NCBI RefSeq assembly: GCF_001514145.1
Contig: NZ_KQ948672.1
Coordinates: 62,001-126,000, forward strand
Reading direction: 5' to 3'
DNA: 64,000 bases
Origin: Streptomyces canus
GTDB taxonomy: Bacteria; Actinomycetota; Actinomycetes; Streptomycetales; Streptomycetaceae
Both the position numbers and the translations under genes were made by a program. Positions within the stretch are counted from its first letter, which is position 1. Every line of letters begins with the position of its first letter. Below the pieces are notes generated by a model. It searched no databases. It was not told where the DNA came from and worked only from the letters and a program-made list of their open reading frames with translations. Shown here one piece after another: positions 1 through 2,310 of the stretch.

Positions 1-1054
1 CCGCGCCGAGGTGGTTGGTACGGCGTTCGACGGCGAGGAGGTGGTTGTCGTCGTAGTAGCCGAAGACGGTGGTGCGGCGCAGGACACGGACCTCGGGGGC
101 GGCGTCGAGCTGCTCCGTCACCTCCCGTACCCAGTCCAGGTGTTGGGCCGTGCCGAGGAGGCTCCCGCCGAGTTCCGGCTGGTCGTCGGCGAGGATGACG
201 CGGGCGCCGCTTTTCGCTGCGGCCGCCGCTGCCGCGAGGCCGGCCGGGCCAGCACCGACGATCAGCAGGTCGCAGTGGGCGTGTACGGCGTCGTAGCGGG
301 CGGGGTCCGGTTCGGTGGCGAGGCGTCCCTGGCCGGGGAGGCTGCTCGCGACCAGGCCGTCGTAGAGCTCGACGGTCGTCGCGGGGAGCATGGGCTCCGG
401 GAAGGGTTCCTCGATCTGGACTACCGCGTTGGGTTCTTCGACGCCGGCGGAGAAGATGCCTCGGGGGCGGCCGAGCTTGATGCTGGTGCCGGCCTGGATG
501 ACGCCGTTGGCGAGGAGGGCGGAGGCGAGGGTGTCGCCTCGGTAGCCCTGGTATTCGGTGCCGTCGAAGGTGAAGGTGAGGGGGGTGTCGCGGTCGATGC
601 GGCCGCGGGTGGGGTGGCGGTAAGGACTTTCCTCGCCCCCGCCGCCCCTACCCGTCCCGTCCTGAAGGGGCTCCGCCCCTTCGACCCCGCCAGGGGGCTC
701 TGCCCCCTGGACCCCCGTCGGCCCTGAAGGGGCCTCGTCCTCAAGCGCCGGACAGGCTGCGACAGCCGACCTCGGCTCAACGGGTGCCGGGCGGTTCTCG
801 CCCGACCTGTACACCGTCAGGATCTCGTTCGTCGACGTGTCCCGTACCGCGTTGAACCACCGTCGGCAGCCCGCCGCGTGGCTCCAGCGCTCGGCGAAGG
901 GGCCCTTCGGGTTGTCACGGAAGAAGAGGTAGCGGGCCCACTCCTCGTCGGGGAGGGACGCCGGGTTCTCCGGGTACGGCACGTGGGCCTGGCCGCCGTA
1001 GTGGAACTCGGCCTCGTCGCGGGGCCCGCACCACGGGCAGGGGATCAGCAGCAT
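1..1054 (-). CDS. soxDA: Sarcosine oxidase delta-alpha fusion (SoxD-SoxA), 3' end outside window
   Basis: Subunits of heterotetrameric sarcosine oxidase, which demethylates sarcosine to glycine and passes the C1 unit to tetrahydrofolate. The ATG at 1054 follows an AAGGAG ribosome site and lies 23 bp after soxB. Residues 1-92 are a full SoxD with the zinc-site CPWCG and the HAAGCRRWF end. About 50 residues of Gly/Pro/Glu-rich linker follow, then the SoxA N-terminus (ferredoxin-like part, RGRIDRDTPLTF onward, then the FAD-binding VGAGPAGLAAA motif near residue 265). No stop codon and no in-frame ATG, GTG or TTG lies in the linker, so SoxA cannot easily start on its own. In relatives soxD and soxA are normally separate, adjacent genes. 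The C-terminal folate-binding half of SoxA and any soxG lie beyond base 1. Confidence 0.88.
   Translation of the reverse strand, partial: MLLIPCPWCGPRDEAEFHYGGQAHVPYPENPASLPDEEWARYLFFRDNPKGPFAERWSHAAGCRRWFNAVRDTSTNEILTVYRSGENRPAPVEPRSAVAACPALEDEAPSGPTGVQGAEPPGGVEGAEPLQDGTGRGGGGEESPYRHPTRGRIDRDTPLTFTFDGTEYQGYRGDTLASALLANGVIQAGTSIKLGRPRGIFSAGVEEPNAVVQIEEPFPEPMLPATTVELYDGLVASSLPGQGRLATEPDPARYDAVHAHCDLLIVGAGPAGLAAAAAAAKSGARVILADDQPELGGSLLGTAQHLDWVREVTEQLDAAPEVRVLRRTTVFGYYDDNHLLAVERRTNHLGA
626..772. repeat. GC-rich hairpin repeat forming the SoxD-SoxA linker
   Basis: Two tight hairpins lie in the linker: arms AAGGGGC/GCCCCTT (665-681) and CCAGGGGGC/GCCCCCTGG (690-710), each with a TCC or TCT loop. 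Such elements are usually intergenic in Streptomyces. Here the repeat is translated and supplies the linker residues 95-143. Confidence 0.7.
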
Positions 1055-1077
1055 GTCGTTCGGCTCCTTGAGGATCC

Positions 1078-2310
1078 CTAGTGGGCCACCGCGGCAGCGC
1101 CGTGCTCGTCGACGAGCGCGCCGGTGGTGAAACGGTCGAGCGAGAAGGGGGCGTTGAGGGCGTGCGGGGTGTCGTGGGCGATGGTGTGGGCGTAGACCCA
1201 GCCGACGCCCGGGGTGGCCTTGAAACCGCCCGTACCCCAGCCGCAGTTGAGATAGAGGTTGTCGACGGGGCTGAGCCCGATGATCGGTGAGGCGTCGGGG
1301 CTGGTGTCGACGATGCCGCCCCAGGTGCGCAGCACGTGGGCGCGGGCGAAGACCGGGAAGAGCTCCAGGGCCGCCGCCATCTGCTCTTCGATGATGTGGA
1401 AGGCACCACGCTGGGTGTACGAGTTGTACGCGTCGATGCCCGCGCCCATCACCAGCTCACCCTTGTGCGCCTGGCTGACGTACACGTGGACGGCGTTGGA
1501 CATGACGACCGTGGGGTGCACCGGCTCCAGGAGCTCGGAGACCAGCGCCTGCAACGGGTGGCTCTGGATGGGCAGTTCGATGCCCGCCATGGCGGCGAGG
1601 ACCGAGGTGTGGCCCGCCGAGCAGAGGGCGACCTTGCCGGCCGCGATGGGGCCGAGGTTGGTCTGGACTCCGACTACCCGGTTGTCGACCACGTCGAGGC
1701 CGGTGACCTCGCAGTTCTGGATGATGTCGATGCCGGCGGCGTCGGCCGAGCGGGCCAGGCCCCAGGCGACGTAGTCGTGCTTGGCGATGCCCGCGCGCGG
1801 CTGGTACGTGGCGCCCAGAACCGGGTAGCGCACGTCCTGAGAGATGTTGACGATCGGACAGACTTCCTTGACACCGTCCGCGTCGAGCCACTCCGCGTCC
1901 ACGCCGTTGAGGCGGTTCGCCTCGACCCGGCGCACGCTGTCGCGGACGTCCTGGAGGCTGTGGGCCAGGTTCAGCACGCCACGCTGGGAGAACAGGATCG
2001 GGTAGTCCAGCTCCTCCCCGAGGCCCTCCCACAGCTTGAGCGCGTGCTCGTAGATGCCGGCGCTCTCGTCCCACAGGTAGTTGGAGCGGATGATCGTGGT
2101 GTTGCGGGCCATGTTGCCGCCCGCGAGCCACCCCTTCTCCAGTACGGCGACATTGGTGATGCCGTGGTTCTTCGCCAGGTAGTGCGCGGTGGCCAGACCG
2201 TGTCCGCCGCCGCCGACGATCACCACGTCGTACGACCGCTTGGGCTCGGGATTGCGCCACAGAAAGTCGGGGTGGTCGGGCAGCTCTGCGCCCGGGATGC
2301 GGGGGCTCAT
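1078..2310 (-). CDS. soxB: Sarcosine oxidase subunit beta
   Basis: Flavoprotein beta subunit (410 aa) of heterotetrameric sarcosine oxidase, the catalytic subunit that oxidises sarcosine. The N-terminal dinucleotide motif [18 protein letters not shown] spans residues 29-46. His178 in AKHDYVAWG sits where family members carry the histidine covalently bound to FMN. The C-terminal [15 protein letters not shown] and [13 protein letters not shown] stretches are typical of DAO-fold amine oxidases. The ATG is preceded by GGAGA about 8 nt away. It lies 58 bp after folD and 23 bp before the soxDA fusion, in the order DMGO-folD-soxB-soxDA, so it is part of the dimethylglycine to glycine operon. Confidence 0.95.

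Follow-up and report, generated by a model that had tools for sequence, protein, structure and literature searches.

The delta and alpha subunits of the heterotetrameric sarcosine oxidase SoxBDAG (1vrq, 2gag) are separate chains, whereas in Streptomyces canus both are read from one frame of 1080 codons, across DNA that belongs to a dispersed repeat. The locus raises the questions of whether a single protein is made, how the two genes were joined, and what part the repeat had in the joining. The stretch analyzed, here called the window, is 64,000 nucleotides long (contig NZ_KQ948672.1, positions 62,001 to 126,000), and comes from a draft genome of 78 contigs and 11.6 Mb. In the explanation favored here, given a probability of roughly 0.85 when taken whole, SoxDA would be one polypeptide in a three-chain sarcosine oxidase, with an element-derived linker and a fusion led by insertion of the element. 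What the sequences show directly is the open frame and its conservation, the repeat within it, the overlap of the two genes where they are not fused, and the constraint on net frame. We infer all three of the main components of the explanation: one stable polypeptide, a linker serving as spacer, and the repeat as first cause.

The fused gene and its neighbors

1-1054, minus strand: soxDA fused gene, the 5' part of a 1080-codon frame running past the left edge of the window
797-1054, minus strand: SoxD (delta subunit) part, residues 1-86 (Pfam SoxD 3-83; alignment to 2gag_D and 1vrq_D)
608-796, minus strand: linker of 63 codons, residues 87-149, with no start codon in frame
1-607, minus strand: SoxA (alpha subunit) part, residue 150 onward, continuing outside the window (Fer2_4 157-238, start of the FAD/NAD-binding region)
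1078-2310, minus strand: soxB (beta subunit), directly upstream of soxDA (DAO domain, 410 aa; named from its operon position)

One open frame occupies positions 2-1054 of the minus strand, starting with the ATG at 1054. A sequence-only reading of the window had SoxD running into SoxA without a stop, and had placed the gene at 1-1054. The fused frame is confirmed; the span describes a real gene, cut by the window edge. In the genome the whole soxDA has 1080 codons (L181 2813-6055) and ends with a complete SoxA, the order of Pfam domains being SoxD 3-83, Fer2_4 157-238, Pyr_redox_2 262-519, SO_alpha_A3 599-681, GCV_T 696-961 and GCV_T_C 986-1072. In sequence alignments the SoxD part matches residues 1-90 of the 1vrq and 2gag delta chains, and the SoxA part is aligned from residue 12 or 13 of the alpha chains (12 in 2gag_A). 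Residues C6, C9, H59 and C63, which we take to be the zinc ligands of the delta subunit, are present in SoxDA and invariant in all 24 aligned fused proteins of relatives.

The delta and alpha domains are those of SoxBDAG, and so is the gene order: soxDA sits between soxB, upstream, and soxG, downstream, the SoxG domain lying at L181 2218-2820. SoxDA, SoxB and SoxG would assemble into an enzyme of three chains, not four. Upstream genes encode a FolD-type protein and a protein with DAO, FAO_M and GCV_T domains, putatively named DMGDH-like. A pterin-binding, FolP-like enzyme (L181 1199-2098, minus strand) and an IclR-type regulator (337-1134, plus strand) are found near soxG. Together with the FolD- and DMGDH-like genes, these two look like part of a cluster for one-carbon metabolism and betaine breakdown.

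The linker and its repeat element

628-759, minus strand: 132-nt dispersed repeat element, forming 44 linker codons, with further copies in the same genome and in other genomes of the genus
690-710, minus strand: hairpin 1 of the element, CCAGGGGGC-AGA-GCCCCCTGG (RNA fold)
664-682, minus strand: hairpin 2 of the element, GAAGGGGC-GGA-GCCCCTTC (RNA fold)

The linker had been described as a repeat of roughly 50 residues. It is indeed made largely of a repeat, yet it measures 63 residues, 44 of which are encoded by the element. The absence of start codons holds: ATG, GTG, TTG, CTG, ATT, ATC and ATA are all missing in frame from the window linker. Both hairpins are perfect in the RNA fold. The RNA of the whole element is no more stable than its shuffles (z-score -0.89; 38 of 200 shuffles equally stable). 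A search for an Rfam family returned two matches far under the gathering score, which were taken as chance.

About 78% of linker residues are P, G, A, E, R, T or S, and judged by composition the linker is probably disordered. AlphaFold2 models of 24 fused proteins (mean pLDDT 42.8) were too poor for judging disorder, and were not used. The linker would act as a flexible spacer encoded by a repeat that is dispersed in Streptomyces genomes, mostly between genes.

Distribution of fused and two-gene loci

Matches at E <= 1e-20 were found in 42 of the 150 genomes of a genus sample, assigned to Streptomyces through named loci nearly identical to it. Rows being judged by reading, the fused type is present in 26 of these (20 as a single piece, 5 as one open frame matched in two pieces, plus G106) and the two-gene type alone in 15; G099, interrupted by a contig end, was left unclassed. 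Junctions were parsed in 14 of the 21 two-gene loci of this sample. Six genomes (G001, G033, G063, G104, G108 and G125) have both types, with SoxA proteins about 60-65% identical. The G106 locus, L030, is a member of the fused clade in which soxD is frameshifted (SoxD start near 1289, WFNA motif near 1507) and the linker is in frame; the cause is either an error in the draft or decay of the gene.

In a sample of the family, 43 of 150 genomes match, and 12 further genomes are fused, eight of them in other genera. At class level matches occur in 14 of 148 genomes, and only four are fused, all Streptomyces already present in the other samples. The best 80 of 560 loci in a named collection are without exception fused, with matches spanning residues 1-350 or 1-351; taking the best favors matches in one piece, a bias absent from the genus and family samples. 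Plasmid records with matches number 90, of which 11 have a query coverage of 80% or more; these 11 are among the 12 best-placed records, all of which match in two pieces, and correspond to two genes where features are listed. On the evidence of these samples, the fusion is a conserved trait of a clade of Streptomycetaceae, not unique to the S. canus genome.

Frame constraint across linkers

The frame was monitored in 181 sequences (180 loci and the window). In 168 of them both genes lie close together, fused in 119 and not fused in 49; the remaining 13 are repeat or paralogue loci. The 119 fused rows reduce to 107 distinct linkers, 114-342 nt long, the shortest, of 38 residues, being those of L124 and L127. 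All 107 have a length which is a multiple of three and are devoid of in-frame stops, stops occurring in the other two frames of 24 and 87 linkers, respectively. Linker length is far from constant, with 39 distinct lengths and at least 86 changes by parsimony (FastTree, 146 rows).

That the same fusion recurs in 107 distinct linkers from many assemblies, complete records L038 and L078 included, refutes an error of sequencing or assembly at the repeat. Such an error might have been suspected in a 78-contig draft, the more so as three of ten copies of the element taken from one other draft genome lie at contig ends.

Most linkers recognizably contain the element: 93 of 107 match the element set, vs. 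none of 107 mononucleotide-shuffled linkers. The 14 which do not match are L023, L024, L059, L103, L109, L112, L114, L116, L117, L120, L121, L123, L126 and L127. The L123 linker has partial matches elsewhere in a related genome, 80% identical over about 100 nt.

SoxA might alternatively be started separately, the open linker frame being a by-product of GC-rich, stop-poor DNA. In the forward direction the window element is open in two of three frames, and 62 of 107 linkers contain an in-frame ATG, GTG or TTG, so that separate starts are conceivable in some species; a start-type codon falls within the last 15 codons in 17 of 107. But 45 linkers, that of the window included, have none of the three codons in frame. 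A separate start moreover predicts free length, against 107 of 107 linkers of triplet length and free of stops, with stops in the other frames. We regard this alternative as very improbable. If SoxA can be produced solely via read-through, the linker total would be kept at triplet length and without stops, and we take the pattern as a sign of strong selection for translation that continues from soxD into soxA.

Within the linkers the frame is less rigid. Hairpin 1, found in 63 linkers, is read in phase 2 in 36, in phase 0 in 24 and in phase 1 in 3. Because the phase varies, linker motifs SGPTGVQGAEPP and VQAEGGSGGAAP are related DNA translated in different frames. Blocks at the element borders hold one phase in all linkers where found (81/81, 53/53 and 66/66). 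In 57 well-aligned sox linkers, 181 indels relative to the window element are not multiples of three, and 13 are; the non-triplet indels are read as compensated internal frame changes. Indels were also considered as a test of coding, and discarded: the dispersed copies of the same genome show non-triplet indels likewise, each of the six differing from the sox copy by at least one, and coding cannot be separated from non-coding in this way. As far as alignments tell, selection is maintaining read-through and a net open frame, not a linker peptide.

A peptide which varies freely and is probably disordered by composition is perhaps accessible to proteases, and one frame could be translated into a product that is cut in the linker, releasing SoxD and SoxA with the repeat peptide as a disposable spacer. 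No motif common to the 107 linkers was seen by eye, which speaks against a cleavage site, and we consider this outcome rather unlikely.

Origin of the fusion

The 49 unfused rows comprise ten second views of the same loci, L030, and 38 distinct junctions. In all 38 soxA is offset by 2 relative to soxD, the genes overlapping as ATGA (34), GTGA (3) or TGATG (1). The sequence-only reading had suggested that insertion of a repeat removed the soxD stop and the soxA start while keeping frame. This does not fit the unfused relatives, whose genes overlap in different frames: a net change of frame was needed. Where the genes overlap at ATGA, the soxD stop does not lie in the soxA frame, and fusion requires no stop to be destroyed.

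The proposed ancestor would have had soxD and soxA overlapping at ATGA and in different frames. A change of length upstream of this overlap, in the simplest case an insertion of the element, would make the soxD frame run into soxA; with 3n+1 inserted bases upstream of ATGA, the soxD stop would be bypassed out of frame. The former soxA start codon would have decayed later. Unfused L129 has a SoxA starting with MTPQPFR, and fused proteins read E-T-T-Q-P-F-R or similar at this place, mostly without Met. Frequent changes in length and internal frame would have followed, the net frame being held by selection.

The fused rows group together: over a tree of 146 rows, 3 changes suffice when L030 is counted as fused. 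In an 86-row tree one clade of two genera holds most of the fused rows, along with L030, and L120 and L121 fall amid unfused relatives; the AU test does not reject a single origin for the fused rows as a whole (p 0.22). L120 (G282) and L121 (G181) come from other genera and carry no recognizable element, and could be independent fusions of the same pair.

That insertion of the repeat caused the fusion, as the sequence-only reading supposed, is possible, and it has to be weighed against fused L120, L121, L126 and L127, all without recognizable element. The fusion may be older than the repeat, or may have arisen more than once. In the former case an indel at the ATGA overlap would have given a plain linker, and repeats would have entered the tolerant spacer afterwards, repeatedly. 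The genomes of the four element-free linkers (G282, G181, G229 and G253) hold no copies of the window element. The L124 linker, from another genus, closely resembles several dispersed copies of its own genome (94% identity over 89 nt, 97% over 71 nt), as expected of late entry or exchange. On the other side, L126 and L127 stand on the tree beside element-bearing L122 and L124 (support 88), loss of the element being equally likely; the L120 genome has 10 matches of the related L124 element; the branches placing L120 and L121 are not starred; and the flanks of the element are in one phase wherever found, as from a single old insertion. We rate the chances that the fusion preceded the repeat as about even.

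Identity between the window element and the sox elements of relatives is 97, 96 and 95% in three cases, and reaches 90% (92% for a partial one) for the dispersed copies of its own genome; dispersed copies in two of the three relatives' genomes also reach 95% to the window element. The closest sequence to the L118 element is the sox copy of a relative (90% over the whole length). In the window and L118 lineages the element was likely inherited with the sox locus, and in other lineages exchange between sox element and dispersed copies is possible.

The fused loci provide a natural series of more than 100 linkers, with the overlapping genes of unfused relatives at one end and the fused gene at the other. 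The series suggests that a single insertion could fuse overlapping genes of an operon, and that protein can arise from a dispersed bacterial repeat with the peptide sequence hardly mattering. For annotation, SoxA is to be expected without a start codon of its own in fused species.

Other copies of the element

At least six other places in the window genome carry the element (140-base query, E <= 0.001; 40 of 47 candidates scored), and a different query adds a partial one on contig C9. The linker had been attributed to a repeat normally located between genes. This describes most copies, five of the six lying outside genes as far as seen, but not the sixth, which is found in frame at 2202-2279 within a CobB/CbiA-type gene (L187 1469-3022, minus strand). 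Here the opposite strand of the element is read, between the CbiA (59-244) and GATase_3 (370-552 of the translated stretch) domains. A second CobB-type gene, in genome G009 (L229 401-2224, plus strand), has the same element between its two domains, again on the opposite strand; the two proteins are 78% identical. These two genes show that a protein unrelated to sarcosine oxidase tolerates the element in frame in its linker.

An element residing in an interdomain linker in two genomes, with no gene fusion involved, is what late entry into a tolerant spacer would look like. This copy lifts the odds that the fusion came first from slightly below even to even, and lowers somewhat those, already doubtful, of a more elaborate history. 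In the latter, a gene suture, the repeat would have been inserted just upstream of ATGA and joined the frames in one step; the junction would have been re-supplied by host copies, the net frame alone being selected. Were this tentative reading true, the element, with its copy in the CobB-type linker, would represent a Streptomyces repeat family that generates protein linkers.

Parallels exist in other bacteria. Rickettsia palindromic elements (RPE; Ogata 2000) are small hairpin repeats found in frame in protein genes, according to PMC10969869. The sox element is similarly a dispersed, hairpin-forming repeat read in frame, here in two unrelated genes, soxDA and the cobB-type gene. RPEs, as described there, occupy many unrelated genes and encode a conserved peptide; most other copies of the sox element examined are in contrast non-genic, and its reading differs in frame and in strand from place to place. 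Enterobacterial RU/ERIC units are described in PMC2759123 as intergenic repeats joined in frame to genes, one apparently removing the normal stop. The cases described are located near protein ends or in small ORFs, whereas the sox element joins two subunits of one enzyme clade-wide. A small repeat read in different frames within coding sequences is mentioned in PMC2267715. Titles and abstract openings, subscription journals lying mostly outside coverage, mentioned neither a fusion of SoxD with SoxA nor the sox element; sequence databases may already carry a fused SoxDA product.

The abundance of the element varies among genomes. Matches were found in 26 of 34 genomes, at least 33 in one of them; the 34 were picked from earlier matches, and per-genome counts are lower bounds. 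Copies outside sox loci were collected from nine genomes (40, three of them at a contig end), and with the six of the window genome 43 could be inspected. An open frame with a coding-leaning codon pattern on both sides was found in five of the 43. Two, those of L187 and L229, lie between Pfam domains of one protein, the Pfam search having covered a minority of the 43. Open frames through the copies in L226, L228 and L236 have no Pfam match, look like non-coding or antisense reading, and were rejected as genes; the L212 copy precedes the domains of a BTAD regulator, and was excluded from the coding count.

A coding filter accepted 100 of the 107 sox junctions in the correct frame, and 8 in a different one. 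None of 14 copies located outside sox junctions in the loci of 80 relatives and the window (929,441 bases) passed it, a weak result, as a similar, laxer filter misses the CobB copy of L187.

Two further situations were observed. At L185 2332-2452 a copy is flanked by an RpiB-type gene and by an Fpg/Nei domain, which begins after the copy; the Fpg/Nei frame is open upstream through the copy, and an N-terminal extension of the Fpg/Nei protein is possible. A related element gives more than 40 matches each in G244 and G169, from another genus of the family.
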